From Pedobacter frigiditerrae (GTDB lineage Bacteria; Bacteroidota; Bacteroidia; Sphingobacteriales; Sphingobacteriaceae): a DNA stretch of 64,000 nt. Both the position numbers and the translations under genes were made by a program. This document shows positions 27,338-34,847 of the stretch, in pieces (positions within the stretch are counted from its first letter, which is position 1; each line of letters starts with the position of its first letter). Under the pieces are notes generated by a model. That model saw only the letters and a program-made list of their open reading frames with translations. It was not told the origin of the DNA and did no database searches. The stretch covers positions 310,301-374,300 of the forward strand of contig NZ_SJSK01000003.1 of NCBI RefSeq assembly GCF_004331645.1. Direction: 5' to 3'.

Positions 27338-27808
27338 CGTCATTCCCAGGCAGGTGGGAATCCTAAGGCGTTATGTATGCCTACTCTGCCTGCTAAAGCA
27401 TTAGGATGCCCAGTCAAGCTGAGCATGACGAATCTTTTCTCGTTACGTCATTCCCACGCAGGTGGGAATCTTAAGGCATTATGAATGCTTACTCTGCCTG
27501 CTATAGCATTAAGATTGCCAGTCAAGCTGGCAATGACGAATCATTTCTGGTTACGTCATTCCCAGGCAGGTGGGAATCCTAAGGCGTTATGTATGCCTAC
27601 TCTGCCTGCTACAGCATTAGGATGCCCTCCCGATAGCTATCGGGACAAGCTGAGCATGACGAATCATTTCTCGTTACGTCATTCCCACGCAGGTGGGAAT
27701 CCTACGGCATTATGAATGCTTACTCTGCCTGCTACAGCATTAGGATGCCCTCCCGATAGCTATCGGGACAAGCTGAGCATGACGAATCATTTCTGGTTAC
27801 GTCATCCC
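27338..27808. repeat. Tandem array of palindromic repeats (4 full copies and a stub)
   Basis: Copies span 27338-27430, 27446-27538, 27554-27661 and 27677-27784, with a truncated fifth at 27800-27808. Each starts CGTCATTCCCA and ends ATGACG. They are separated by nearly constant 15-base linkers (AATCATTTCTGGTTA). The period is 108 bases for the first two and 123 for the next two, the difference being an inner palindrome CCCGATAGCTATCGGG. Short open frames across the array are by-products. The stub ends where the higher-GC segment of the DUF6266-like gene begins. Confidence 0.92.
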
Positions 27809-27835
27809 AACGAAAAACGCTCAACGCTCAACGTA

Positions 27836-28627
27836 CTAATACCCCTTTTCATCAAATTGATGCCATCCCTTGGTAAGCGCTGGGTCAGTAATTCCATCCG
27901 CTATGTGGGCATGCAATATGGCCGCCGGATTAAAGTCCTTGGTATTAATGGTGGTCTCACCGATAAAGGTCTCCTCCACATACTGAAGCGAGATGGCTGT
28001 AACGTACAAGCATCCCGGTATCATCTCAAACTCAAAGGTCTGGGAGGCCACAAGGCTGGGCTTATAGGTGTAGGGGATATCCATCACCTGTGGTTCGGCA
28101 AATTTTGTGCTTCCCCTTTTCAGGTCTATGCCAATGGTGGCAATCAATAGCTTGCAGGTTTTAAGTCGGTCAATTGGCCACTTAAGGTCGGTGGGTATCT
28201 TTATCTCGGGTACGGTAACCTTCAGGGTGTTGCCTTCAATAGTAACTTGGGGCTGCACATAAAAATGATTCTTGACCATAGAGCCAACATTGAACTCAAA
28301 ACCAGCAAGTGTACGGAAACTGTCGGCATTAAAATCAAATTGCTTTTCTGGATCCCTCGCAGCTGTTAAACAACGCAGTATTTCGGTATTGGACCTATAG
28401 ATCATTGTCCCGTCATAGAACTTTCCACAGATATAGCCAAGCCCCCGCCTGATTCCCCCGGCTAGCTTGCTCGATTTACCGAAGAGCGTTGCCGCTTTTT
28501 TTGTGCCCTCGGTACGGTGGCTCTTGATAACCTTTGGCAAGCCTGAAACAACTTGGGTGCCCCTGTACTCACGAAATACCAGGCTGCCAGCCTTGCCCTT
28601 TATAAATTTTCCCTTAATTGTTCCCAT
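27836..28627 (-). CDS. DUF6266-like protein of unknown function
   Basis: Function unknown. The 263-residue protein opens MGTIKGKFIKGKAGSLVFRE and continues with GLPKVIKSHRTEGTKKAATLFG. This resembles the N-terminus of the Bacteroidota DUF6266 family, which I recognise by pattern only. The C-terminal half is beta-rich with no catalytic motif visible, and there is no signal peptide or membrane helix. Base composition is clearly richer in G and C than the flanking genes, which suggests transfer. Its 5' region contains three clusters of 11-bp repeats (28650-28867) and its 3' end abuts a repeat array cut mid-copy. The gene with its repeats may form one mobile unit; that is inference. Confidence 0.75.
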   Translation of the reverse strand: MGTIKGKFIKGKAGSLVFREYRGTQVVSGLPKVIKSHRTEGTKKAATLFGKSSKLAGGIRRGLGYICGKFYDGTMIYRSNTEILRCLTAARDPEKQFDFNADSFRTLAGFEFNVGSMVKNHFYVQPQVTIEGNTLKVTVPEIKIPTDLKWPIDRLKTCKLLIATIGIDLKRGSTKFAEPQVMDIPYTYKPSLVASQTFEFEMIPGCLYVTAISLQYVEETFIGETTINTKDFNPAAILHAHIADGITDPALTKGWHQFDEKGY

Positions 28628-28649
28628 ATCCTTTGTCTTTTGTTCGTTA

Positions 28650-28707
28650 TCCAGTCGTGACGTCGTCGCTACTGCTTATGTACAGCATCGTACCAACGTC
28701 GTATCAG
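28650..28707 (-). repeat. 11-bp phased repeats, set 3 (next to the DUF6266-like gene)
   Basis: Read on the minus strand, consecutive 11-mers begin CTGATACGACG, TTGGTACGATG, CTGTACATAAG, CAGTAGCGACG and ACGTCACGACT. They resemble the CWGnTACGAnn consensus of set 1 but lie in the opposite orientation and are less regular. The exact 10-base inverted pair GTCGTATCAG (28698-28707) and CTGATACGAC (28846-28855) links the two sets. Confidence 0.6.
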
Positions 28708-28751
28708 AGTTGTAGTGTTACAATAGTAAATGTAATACATAAACATAAAAA

Positions 28752-28779
28752 GTCCAAGTTTTTATTGAAATACTTGGAC
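28752..28779. repeat. Central hairpin of the DUF6266 upstream region
   Basis: GTCCAAGT (28752-28759) is the perfect inverse of ACTTGGAC (28772-28779), with a 12-base AT-rich loop. The right arm is also the first unit of the TTGGAC repeat set, so hairpin and array overlap. Confidence 0.7.
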
Positions 28780-28817
28780 ACATATTGGACTTATATTGGA
28801 CTCATATTGGACTCATT
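28774..28817. repeat. 11-bp phased repeats, set 2 (TTGGAC type, four units)
   Basis: Four contiguous 11-mers: TTGGACACATA, TTGGACTTATA, TTGGACTCATA and TTGGACTCATT. The 11-base spacing puts each TTGGAC on about the same face of the helix. The units do not keep a reading frame, which argues against coding. Confidence 0.92.
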
Positions 28818-28823
28818 GCATTT

Positions 28824-28867
28824 CTGTTACGACGCAGATACGATTCTGATACGACCCAGAAGCGATG
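28824..28867. repeat. 11-bp phased repeats, set 1 (TACGA type, four units)
   Basis: Four contiguous 11-mers on the + strand: CTGTTACGACG, CAGATACGATT, CTGATACGACC and CAGAAGCGATG, consensus CWGnTACGAnn. They start 6 bases after set 2. The set ends a few bases before the broken copy of the small-gene 3' end. Confidence 0.9.
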
Positions 28868-28871
28868 TTGG

Positions 28872-28903
28872 TATGAATAAATTCCGATGATTTAGTGAAA
28901 TAA
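28872..28903 (+). pseudogene. Remnant of a second copy of the 64-residue YtxH-like gene
   Basis: Bases 28886-28903 read Asp-Asp-Leu-Val-Lys-stop, matching Asp-Asp-Leu-Ala-Arg-stop of the gene ending at 24048. Similarity continues through the spacer (TAG, TT, AAAAGATAAAAGAGG) into the terminator. The preceding ATGAAT is also shared but is followed by 7 extra bases. Everything upstream of about 28870 is replaced by the 11-bp repeats, so the gene was cut or overwritten there. Confidence 0.65.
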
Positions 28904-29198: not shown

Positions 29199-32100
29199 AT
29201 GAACAGCAAAGAGCTCACAGTTGCAGTACCAAATTCAAAAAAAACCATTAATGGGTCTCTCGACCTAAAAGAATTGTTAAACGTACTATCCTCTGTAAAG
29301 AGTGGCAGATTGAACATTCGGATGCCGGTTACGCAAGCAGGTATTGAAGGTAGAATTTGTGAGGTACTCAATGATATCATAGACATGAACCAGCGACTTG
29401 TGGCTGAATTGTCTTCTGCTGAAAAAAACATTGGAAAGAAAGGAAATCTTTCTAAAAGGATAGAACTTCCCGAAGCAAAGGGAGAGTGGGCAGATGGTGT
29501 AAGTTCATTAAATACCTTAATTACCGATCTTACTTCGCCAACATTGGAAATCGCCAACATGATTAACTCCGTTGCCAATGGTGATCTTTCTAAACATATT
29601 CCCTTAGAAATAAATGGACAACCATTGAAGGGCGAATTTCTTCGAATTGCAAAGGAGTCAAATCAGATGTTATCTAAACTGAGGCTTTTTTCAATGGAAG
29701 TTACCCGGGTTGCTCGTCAGGTAGGTTCTGAAGGTAAGCTAGGTGAACAGGCTAAGATTAAAGGAGTTGCTGGGGTTTGGGCCGAATTGACCGACTCTGT
29801 AAACCAAATGGCAGGTAACTTAACTGCTCAAGTAAGGAATGTTGCAGCAGTAACAACAGCGGTAGCCAAAGGAGATTTATCAAGGAAAATCACGGTGGAG
29901 GCGAAGGGCGAGATCTTAGAGCTTAAAAATACAATCAATACGATGGTAGATCAGCTCAACTCTTTTTCTTCTGAAGTAACTCGTGTAGCCCTAGAGGTAG
30001 GAACAGAAGGTAAACTGGGCGGACAGGCCGAAGTACCTGGGGTTGCAGGAACATGGAAAGATTTAACAGATTCGGTGAATAGGATGGCTGGGAACCTTAC
30101 CTCGCAGGTAAGGAACATCGCAGGGGTAACCACGGCGGTGGCCAACGGTGACCTTTCTAAAAAAATCACAGTAGATGTAAAAGGAGAGATGTTAGAGCTG
30201 AAGAAAACCATTAACACCATGGTAGATCAGCTGAATTCATTTGCCTCAGAGGTAACACGTGTAGCTTTGGAGGTAGGTACCGAGGGTAAATTAGGAGGGC
30301 AAGCAAAGGTAAAAGGTGTTGGAGGGGTTTGGAAAGATTTAACTGATTCGGTAAATCAAATGGGTAGTAACCTGACCGATCAGGTGAGGAATATTGCAGG
30401 GGTAACTACTGCGGTAGCTAAGGGAGATTTATCTAGAAAAATAACGGTAGACGCAAAAGGCGAGCTATTGGAATTAAAGAACACCATTAATACAATGGTA
30501 GATCAGTTAAATTCATTTTCTTCTGAGGTAACCCGGGTAGCTAGAGAGGTAGGGTCTGAAGGGCAATTAGGTGGACAAGCCAATGTTCCTGGTGTGGGTG
30601 GTACTTGGAAAGATTTAACGGATTCGGTAAACCAAATGGCGGGTAACCTAACCGGACAAGTAAGAAATATTGCAGAAGTAACTACTGCTGTGGCCAAGGG
30701 AGACCTTTCTAAAAAAATCACAGTAGATGTACAGGGAGAGATGTTAGAACTCAAAATCACCATTAACACGATGGTAGATCAATTGAATTCGTTTGGTTCG
30801 GAGGTAACACGTGTGGCTCGTGAGGTTGGTTCAGAGGGTCAGTTAGGTGGGCAGGCGAACGTGCCTGGTGTAGGTGGTACTTGGAAAGATTTAACAGATT
30901 CTGTAAATAAGATGGCAGATAACCTGACCTCTCAGGTGCGTAACATTGCAGAGGTAACCACAGCTGTAGCCAAAGGTGATCTTTCTAGGAAGATTACCGT
31001 AAATGCAAAGGGTGAACTTTTGGAACTGAAAAACACCATTAATACGATGGTAGATCAGTTGAGGGGATTTGCATCTGAGGTAACCCGTGTGGCAAGGGAG
31101 GTAGGTTCTGAAGGACAATTGGGTGGTCAGGCAAATGTACCAGGCGTAGATGGTACATGGAAAGATTTAACCGATAGTGTAAACAAAATGGCGGGTAACT
31201 TAACCGCCCAACTAAGAAATATAGCTGATGTGGCTATCGCGGTAGCTAATGGAGATTTATCTAAAAAAATTACGGTAGATGTAAGGGGAGAAATTTTGCA
31301 ATTAAAAGAAACCATCAACACGATGGTAGATCAGTTGAGGGGATTTGCATCTGAGGTAACTCGTGTGGCACGTGAGGTGGGAACCGATGGTAACCTTGGT
31401 GGACAGGCCTTTGTACCTGGGGTTGCCGGAACGTGGAAAGATTTAACTGACTCTGTAAATCAAATGTCTAGTAACCTTACTTCTCAGGTACGAAACATTG
31501 CCGAGGTAACCAAGGCTGTTGCCAGTGGAGATTTATCCAAAACGGTTATCATCGACGTAAAGGGAGAAATGATGGATTTGAAGAATACCATCAATACGAT
31601 GGTAGATCAGCTCAATTCATTTGCATCTGAGGTAACCCGTGTGGCAAGAGAGGTAGGAACCGAAGGTAAGCTTGGTGGACAAGCACAAGTAAAAGGTGTA
31701 GGTGGAACATGGAAGGATCTTACCGATTCAGTAAATCAGATGGCATCTAACCTTACCGGACAGATACGTGGTATTGCAAAAGTAGCAACAGGCATTGCAA
31801 AGGGGAATTTGAAGCAACGATTATCCATTAATGCATTAGGTGAGGTTGCTCAATTAACAGACACCATTAATGAGATGATTGATACACTTGCCGTATTTGC
31901 CGATCAGGTAACCACCGTGGCACGTGAGGTGGGTGTACAAGGAAGATTAGGGGGGCAGGCTAGTGTACCAGGGGCTTCTGGAACTTGGAAAGATTTAACG
32001 GAAAATGTAAATCAGCTAGCACAAAATCTAACTACGCAAGTACGTTCTATTTCTGAGGTAGCATCTGCAGTAACAAAAGGAGATTTAACACGAACCATTA

Positions 32101-34847
32101 GGGTAGACGCAAAAGGGGAATTGGAGGCATTAAAGGATACCATTAACCAAATGATTGCCAACCTAAAAGGCACTACCTTGAGGAACCATGAGCAAGATTG
32201 GTTAAAATCTAACTTGGCCAAATTTGCACAGATGTTGCAAGGACAGCGTGATCGAAATGCAGTAGCCAATAAAGTATTATCTGAATTGGCCGAGCTTGTA
32301 AATGCCCGATATGGTGCTTTTTATATCTTAGAACAGTTAGAGCCTTTAGATGAGCCTAAACTTAAATTGTTTGCGGGTTACGCCCATAAAACTACAAAGA
32401 AGATTAACCAAGAATTTTCATTAAGCGAAGGGCTTGTTGGGCAGTGCGCCATAGACAAAGAACAAATTAGGATCACTAATTTCCCCAATGATAACCTACA
32501 AATCAGCTCAGGAATTGGTAGTGCTACACCATTAGATCTCGTGATCCTTCCTGTATTATTTGAGAACAATGTGAAGGCAGTAATCGAATTGGCCTCTTTT
32601 GATACTTTTAGTGATACTCACATCGATTTCTTAGATCAATTAACAGAGAGTATTGGTATTGTACTAAATAATATTGAGACTAATACACGTACAGAAGAAT
32701 TGTTAACCCAATCGCAATCTTTAGCAGGAGAACTTTCGGCACAACAAGAAGAATTAAGAAGGGCAAATGATGAATTACATGATAAAGGAAGGTCATTAGA
32801 GGAAAAAGCAGAACAATTAACACTTACCTCTAAATATAAATCAGAGTTTTTGGCGAACATGTCTCATGAGTTGAGGACACCACTCAATAGCTTACTGATT
32901 CTAGCGCAACAACTCTTTGAAAACCATGATGGCAATTTAACCGAAAAGCAAATCAAATATGCAAAAACGATCCACTCATGTGGAGACGATTTGATTCAAC
33001 TGATCAATGATATCCTCGATCTTTCAAAAATCGAATCTGGCGTAATTTCAGCAGATGTACTTCCTGTAAGCTTTAAGGAAATAGCCTCGTTCGTTGAATC
33101 TACCTTTAAACCAATCTCAGAAACTAAAAACCTAAAATTCGAAATCAATATAGAAAATGGTTTGCCTGAAATGATTGAAACAGATATACAACGTTTGAAC
33201 CAGATTTTGAAAAACTTATTATCAAATGCATTTAAGTTTACCGAAAAAGGTAGTGTAAAGTTAAATATCTTTAAGCAGTTTATCACTGCTGATGGTACTT
33301 TGAAAAAGAATGAGGAAGTTATCGCCTTTTCAATCGAAGATACTGGGATAGGCATTTCCAGAAATACCCAAGGGATTATCTTTGAGGCTTTTCAGCAAGC
33401 TGAGGGCTCTACGAGTAGGAAATATGGCGGTACCGGACTTGGGCTATCCATTAGCAAGGGTTTTGCCGAATTATTAGGTGGAACAATTACGGTTGGCAGT
33501 GAGCTTGGAAAAGGAAGTGTATTTACGTTATTGCTTCCAATGAAGTACAAAGAGGGTGCCTCAGTGGCACCTGAGGGTTTGGTGAAAGAAATCTTTAATA
33601 CTAACCATCCTCGCACTAATCTAATTGATGTTGCTGAACACCAAGTAGAAGATGACCGTCATCATATTGTAGCAGAAGACAAAGTAATTATTGTAATTGA
33701 GGATGATATTCGATTTACAAAAATTGTAATGGATAAGGCACATGACATGAATCTAAAGGTAGTAGTAGCCATAGGTTATTTTGAAATTTTTGAAAGTATC
33801 CAGAAATACAATCCAATTGCCATCACCTTAGATGTTAACATGCCTGATTCAAATGGATGGAAAATATTAAAACTACTTAAAAGTGATATTTCATTAAGAC
33901 ATATCCCAGTTCACTTGATTTCTGGAGAGGATAACAAAGCCTTTGCACTAAAATTAGGTGCTAAGAGTTTTAGCCTCAAACCATTATCGAATAAGACATT
34001 GGATGATCTCATTTCTGGAATTATCGCTTTTAGCGAACAGAAGCTTAGAAAGGTGTTGGTTATAGAGGATAATGAAGCTGAGCTGGATAGGATTACGGAG
34101 CTATTGAAAAATGATGGGACGGTAATTTACTCCTCAAGTACGGCGAAAAAGGGACTTTCTATGCTCAAGGATGAAATATTCGACTGTATCATTTTAGATT
34201 ACATGTTACCAGATGTGAAAGGAATGGAATTGCTGAACAAAATTAACCTATTGAAACGTCCGCAAACCACCATCATTATCCATTCTGCCAGGGAGTTTAC
34301 CCATGATGAACTTACACAACTCAAAAGGCTTAATCATAGGATAATTACTAAGACACCTAATTCTAACATAGATCTATTGGAAGCCATGTTGACCCTGTTG
34401 CATATCAACAAGAATCAACTCAATGAGCAAAAAATTAAGCTCATCCAGAAACTACAGACCGGAAGTGATATTCTAAATGCAAAAAGGGTTTTAGTGGTAG
34501 ATGATGATGTAAGAAACCTCTTTGCGCTGACTGCTGCATTTGAAAGATCAAATATCGATGTGCTAACAGCAGAAAGTGGTAGAGATGCCATCGAAATATT
34601 AAAGGGTAGTAAGAAAATAGATATTGTGCTCATGGACATCATGATGCCAGAAATGGATGGATACGAAACTATTCAGATGATTAGGAAAGATCCAAAGCAT
34701 AAAAACCTTCCAATTATTGCCGTTACTGCAAAGGCAATGATTGGCGATAGACAAAAATGTATTGCTTCTGGTGCGTCAGACTATATTACCAAACCAGTAA
34801 AAACAGACCAGTTACAATCATTAATGAAAATATGGTTGATTAAGTAA
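29199..34847 (+). CDS. Soluble poly-HAMP hybrid histidine kinase with GAF and three receiver domains
   Basis: Large cytoplasmic phosphorelay kinase of 1882 residues. No signal peptide or membrane helix is visible. Residues about 40-1000 are a chain of HAMP-type units with a 92-residue (276-base) period; nine share the core [19 protein letters not shown] and [11 protein letters not shown]. This pattern is well known from fungal group III (Nik1/Os-1) osmosensing kinases. A GAF domain covers about 1010-1160, then a coiled coil, HisKA with His1223 ([12 protein letters not shown]) and a HATPase domain near 1328-1449. Three receivers carry Asp1545, Asp1667 and Asp1813; the last ([11 protein letters not shown]) is the most canonical. 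It is followed by a REC-kinase gene 6 bases on, so the two probably work in one relay. Confidence 0.95.

Follow-up and report, generated by a model that had tools for sequence, protein, structure and literature searches.

Helically phased 11-bp repeat arrays upstream of DUF6266-type genes in Pedobacter: a candidate family of dispersed extragenic elements

In the 5.81 Mb genome of Pedobacter frigiditerrae, a 240-bp block of 11-bp units lies between a minus-strand gene for a 263-aa protein and the gene for a multi-HAMP hybrid kinase. What kind of element is it, and does it occur elsewhere? The window, by which we mean the whole 64,000-nucleotide stretch that was analysed, is contig C7:310301-374300. 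The 263-aa gene (27836..28627, minus strand) is transcribed away from the array. The hybrid kinase on the other side (29199-34847, 1882 aa) has about ten HAMP repeats, visible as a 276-bp DNA repeat, with GAF, HisKA and HATPase domains and three receiver domains. Tandem 108/123-bp repeats starting CGTCATTCCC, at 27338-27809, are a separate dispersed repeat that also flanks loci L015, L016 and L020 in the genome.

The whole element occupies 28640..28880 and is given no strand. Read in the direction of the gene, it begins with an outer arm of 11-bp CWGnTACGAnn units (28814..28865, plus strand), followed by the inner array of four 11-bp TTGGACTCATA units (28774..28817, plus strand; GAGTCCAnnnt in gene orientation), the central dyad GTCCAAGT...ACTTGGAC (28752..28779, strandless, core-to-core spacing 22 bp), degenerate AT-rich inverted units (28718..28751, minus strand) and a gene-proximal outer arm of inverted 11-bp CWGnTACGAnn units (28665..28717, minus strand), which is complementary to 28814-28865. 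The inner-array unit closest to the dyad also serves as one dyad arm, and the inverted inner units are degenerate at the same position in relatives too. The region folds as a single long imperfect hairpin (z -5.7 on the plus strand and -3.0 on the minus strand).

Much of this layout had been predicted from the letters alone. The hairpin at the dyad and a third run in the opposite orientation, at 28665-28717 and pairing with the distal outer arm, are both borne out, and the 11-bp period stands far above background: lag-11 identity within 28650-28867 is 31/44, while 5000 dinucleotide shuffles averaged 16.5 and never exceeded 25. The claim of two perfect four-unit runs has to be softened. The TTGGACTCATA run does have four units but is not perfect, because its matches amount to 90% (TRF), and the CWGnTACGAnn run (about 28822-28866) is present but looser than claimed, with 68% matches at period 11 and 82% at period 22.

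The original prediction also called the gene DUF6266-like. It is that and no more: the protein has no Pfam match even at E<=10, and its relationship to PF19781 is a profile-profile link (hhalign probability 77%, E 2e-5) over residues 1-111, only the N-terminal part being aligned. The locus falls below the Pfam gathering cut-off for PF19781 and is not among the six PF19781 loci of its own genome. An AF2 model (pLDDT 91.6) predicts a basic N-terminal four-strand beta-meander, helices, and then a C-terminal Ig/FN3-like beta-sandwich; no recognised DNA-binding domain is seen in this predicted fold, and PDB sequence and fold searches and viral structure searches with the protein returned weak or generic Ig-like matches only. 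Over the 60-68 residues at the N-terminus, net charge averages +8.9 in one of the two families and +8.5 in the other, versus +1.4 in 113 control ORFs, and because this segment is so strongly basic we consider nucleic-acid binding by it plausible, judging from sequence. Homologues of the gene were absent from phage collections, plasmid collections and IMG/VR. When genes neighbouring the homologues were clustered, neither a conserved neighbour nor a regulator gene emerged, and the open-access papers searched make no mention of DUF6266.

Homologues of the window gene were found in 21 of 59 relatives searched, and at 40 GTDB loci that are by name nearly all Pedobacter, with Flavobacteriaceae included. 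The original prediction hinged on related genes carrying such repeats, and they do. An array was called when the lag-11 score reached 25/44, a value that shuffles reach in 0.6%. By this threshold an array of about four 11-bp units plus dyad lies upstream of 33 of 39 homologues, in Pedobacter and Flavobacteriaceae (with arrays also in Mesonia, Pustulibacterium and Flavobacterium), compared with none of 40 regions downstream of homologues and none of 154 upstream regions of neighbouring genes (Fisher 2e-31 against these control regions). A few homologues, L200 and some 10-bp cases, depart from the pattern. Upstream of homologues, period 11 and its multiple 22 alone are clearly raised. Many genuine DUF6266 genes (PF19781) carry arrays too: 21/35 pass at lag 11, some use period 10, and among those that lack an array are genes standing second in a gene cluster. 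Their motifs (AACAGGGACTT, TTCGGGAAGCG, TTTAGTCGTAC and GGTTACCTTTT) are unrelated. Arrays with period 10 instead of 11 occur at a subset of DUF6266-type genes, in loci of G013, G019, G023 and G024 (L153, L155, L141).

Most DUF6266-type genes have an array 100-350 bp upstream, and at nearly all homologues of the window gene it lies 100-250 bp before the ATG. It holds 3 to 8 units and, at nearly all homologues, the order is the same and in one orientation, with direct units first, the dyad next and weak inverted units last. The dyad cores are 22 or 23 bp apart in 31 of 34 arrays, and therefore the helical phase continues through the centre.

Arrays are also found without the gene. The window's genome has seven further clear copies of the element (77-86% identity by BLAST, in non-homologous flanks) as well as more distant TATGGACTTAC-type copies, and dispersed copies were likewise seen in G006, G022 and G032. 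Gene remnants remain at L019 (residues 2-39) and L061 (residues 1-47), and at L021 a C-terminal fragment lies on the other side, but most solo arrays of this genome lack such a remnant and are nonetheless well preserved, so that the gene, if it acts in dispersal, would have to do so in trans. Six copies in G022 share a common order of unit variants and similar end borders, and in G032 the array begins at the first unit. Borders are fairly sharp within each of these two genomes and differ between families.

A covariance model of the AGTCCA-type array, built from 29 sequences, found arrays in Pedobacter only among 59 genomes, with 44 matches in the window's genome (palindromic sites match on both strands) and none in 11 Pedobacter genomes lacking the window gene. 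Across 36 Pedobacter genomes, 19 have both gene and array, two the gene only, four the array only and 11 neither (Fisher 2e-4, uncorrected for kinship); all four with the array only hold PF19781 genes. A motif-free scan of 0.82 Mb of contig C7 gave 12 eleven-bp arrays, none in coding sequence and nine not beside a DUF6266-type gene, while 1.15 Mb of Pedobacter without either family gave none, a comparison of one contig of one array-bearing genome with four other genomes. In 166 kb of gene flanks in other Pedobacter there was no further array. One site on the same contig, G000:C7:510633-511400 (L179), has three 11-bp arrays with motifs AAGTCCAAGTC, TCGAACGATCC and CTTCGGGAAAG within about 700 bp and no obvious gene between them; the last resembles the array upstream of the DUF6266 gene L068. 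Another recurrent dispersed array, four units of CATCCTTCGTT and then TTTATAGGC, is found at G000:C7:668091, at C7:725800 and at L052, with no recognised DUF6266 gene adjoining.

Insertion sequences land beside these arrays. The one-contig genome G006 contains nine copies, one of them interrupted, of an element whose sequence features place it in the IS3 family: orfA/orfB, a DDE integrase-like OrfB and ends TGTCGATT...AAGACA of the TG...CA kind. Its ends read TGTCGATTCC and GGATAAGACA, and seven copies show matching 3-bp duplications in the sequence itself. An 11-bp array adjoins the right end of every one of the nine, always in one orientation: six of AGTCCACGTCT type, two of AGTCTATGGTG and one of AACCCCATCCC. 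The distance from the IS to the first unit is 22-23 bp in seven copies and 12 bp in one (L336), while the remaining IS is within its array. In G035 an 80% relative is found about 18 bp away from GGTCTATTCnT units, in G024 a 43% relative adjoins an 11-bp palindrome, and in P. hiemivivus and Pedobacter sp. ok626 IS ends are at the usual distance from TACTCCAACTA arrays. At L204, L205 and L206, in the latter two organisms, left and right IS ends are fused into a remnant of about 36 bp, TGTCGATTCCTAAAAAAGCTATATACGGATAAGACA. Since the arrays used differ in sequence, the IS responds to something common to such arrays. A reading made from one locus could show neither a dispersed family nor an insertion target.

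Drawing on the observed architecture, gene association, dispersal and IS targeting, we propose that the element in the window belongs to a family, not described before, of palindromic arrays that are extragenic and helically phased and go together with the DUF6266 superfamily; to this we give a probability of roughly 0.45. In such an array a dyad is flanked on one side by about four direct units of 11 bp and on the other by degenerate inverted units, often with outer 11-bp arms. Each turn of the helix may present one unit, always on the same face of the DNA, to a protein molecule, with co-operative binding about the dyad. The likeliest binder would be the DUF6266-type protein through its strongly basic N-terminal domain, each paralogue being matched to its own motif. 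Same-flavour copies may then have spread through the genome without the gene, by or with this protein. The array, or its complex with the protein, would also act as a docking target, with IS3-family transposases inserting roughly two helical turns beyond the first unit, whether it is the complex or the DNA shape that they recognise.

The same observations have to be weighed under other explanations. A gene that travels together with the region controlling it could produce the gene-array association, and the array might be an operator, on whose phased sites a separate regulator or the gene product controls the DUF6266-type gene, solo copies being leftovers of gene loss. We think this unlikely, though deserving of serious weight. 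It accounts for the fixed place upstream of the gene, the single orientation, the differing motifs of paralogues and the truncated gene starts that persist at L019 and L061, as well as for the mscL-rpoN interval, which holds array and gene in one species and a solo array of different flavour in another. It does not account for well-conserved solo arrays that mostly lack a gene remnant, nor for the genes downstream of them: among 18 solo copies, the first gene met in array direction is co-oriented with the array in 8 and opposed to it in 10. There is also no conserved regulator gene nearby and no convincing promoter between array and ATG, where the Bacteroidota promoter consensus scores a mean of 8.0 versus 7.3 in shuffles, out of 10, at no consistent position. 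Dispersal without the gene would come more naturally if the arrays were MITE- or REP-like elements moved by an unrelated transposase, with DUF6266-type genes as passengers that carry one. Copies in G022 and G032 that are nearly identical and end fairly sharply agree with this, as does the patchy occupancy of orthologous sites (the unit behind a MATE gene is present in G022, and the window's genome has nothing there). Set beside a MITE, with its defined terminal inverted repeats and target duplications, the arrays have complementary outer arms and fairly sharp borders within one genome, and no duplication was seen. We judge this a rather improbable account, given that no transposase is known as a candidate (Y1_Tnp is absent from the array-rich G012, G026 and G032 and has 4-5 copies in the array-free G005 and G007), that no terminal repeats, target duplications or clean empty site with a target duplication were seen around solo arrays, and that it leaves unexplained why unrelated motifs keep a constant 11-bp step beside one gene superfamily.

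The long hairpin raises the further thought that the array serves the DUF6266-type mRNA as a structured leader RNA and works through attenuation or by binding a protein. Its predicted folding is strong, core stem pairs show some compensatory change, and the two outer flanks of an array match each other as complements better than swapped controls do (mean 18.6 versus 14.7, 0/2000 permutations). Yet in 11-12 of 29 sequences two positions inside the stem fail to pair, a constant helical phase across the loop is not expected of an RNA, solo copies lie in either orientation between genes that they could not lead, and the IS recognises the same feature in DNA; we regard a leader as very improbable. 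No Rfam family matched at gathering thresholds except tRNAs in the flanks, and a weak MIR841 match merely reflects the long hairpin. That the repeats are ordinary slippage satellites without function is hardly credible. Unit number does vary from 3 to 8, and the window has 7-bp as well as 108-bp repeats, but slippage is contradicted already by the gene association; moreover, upstream of the homologues no period other than 11 and its multiple 22 is enriched, the 12 noncoding arrays on contig C7 compare with none there at lags 10 and 13, the dyad spacing is fixed and the dispersed copies share a unit order. The original prediction had left three options side by side, a protein-binding platform, a leader RNA and the recognition region of a mobile unit. 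The leader is now disfavoured, and a dispersed recognition-platform DNA element is favoured because the helical phase runs through the dyad, solo copies lie in either orientation and the IS inserts at a phased distance.

Phased arrays with some of these properties are known. The parC centromere of plasmid R1 consists of sets of 11-bp direct repeats around a promoter, with one ParR protein per helical turn; the arrays described here share the 11-bp direct repeats but are chromosomal, dispersed, dyad-bearing and variable in motif, and clustering of neighbours into families gave no conserved ParM or ParR neighbour of array genes. MraZ, a small protein, recognises a small number of direct repeats that stand about one helical turn apart in front of its gene, with period 10, whereas our arrays have period 11 and are dispersed, and the protein has no Pfam relation. 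TnsD-directed insertion at attTn7 likewise keeps a constant distance and orientation from a recognised site, but here the targets are numerous arrays that differ in sequence, and what inserts is an IS3-type element.

Closest in organisation are REP/REPIN sequences with their RAYT genes (PMC3116915, PMC2817692), which are also dispersed extragenic palindromes with a genome-specific flavour beside an associated gene and gene-less copies elsewhere. They differ in that the present elements are 11-bp phased direct repeats around a dyad, roughly 110-240 bp long, and in that a DUF6266-type protein takes the place of the Y1 transposase as partner, Y1 genes failing to track the arrays. The arrays resemble REPIN/RAYT systems in having dispersed palindromes beside a gene but are not members, because the Y1 tyrosine transposase that defines those systems was looked for and is absent from three array-rich genomes. 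Nor are they REPs in the strict sense of a 20-40 bp palindrome with a GTAG or CGTC tag (PMC3733652), as the elements are about 110-240 bp and no such tag is in the consensus. IS1397 and ISKpn1 are IS3-family elements that target REP sequences (PMC1525189) and so insert specifically at extragenic palindromic repeats, as does the IS found here; unlike them, it keeps in most cases to a fixed, phased distance from the repeat and outside it, always has one orientation, and uses arrays of unrelated motif. The open-access literature searched gave no account of 11-bp repeats in Pedobacter or Bacteroidetes intergenic regions, and an earlier description elsewhere is possible.

The DUF6266 superfamily, with up to 25 copies per genome, gains a testable partner in its upstream DNA array. 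A bolder extension, which we put forward tentatively and hold to be less probable than not by a clear distance, would see in the superfamily a protein class of a new kind, whose members recognise their cognate phased arrays and spread them, and which in Bacteroidota would correspond to RAYT-REPIN without being homologous to it: recognition would depend on the 11-bp phasing and the dyad, motifs would drift freely, and landing pads for IS3-family elements would be created. An IS beside repeats of unrelated motif is an unusual target choice, and the arrays would explain IS hotspots in Bacteroidota. If true, this would be a new kind of intergenic repeat system outside the world of Y1 transposases, with repeats that hold their geometry while their letters change.
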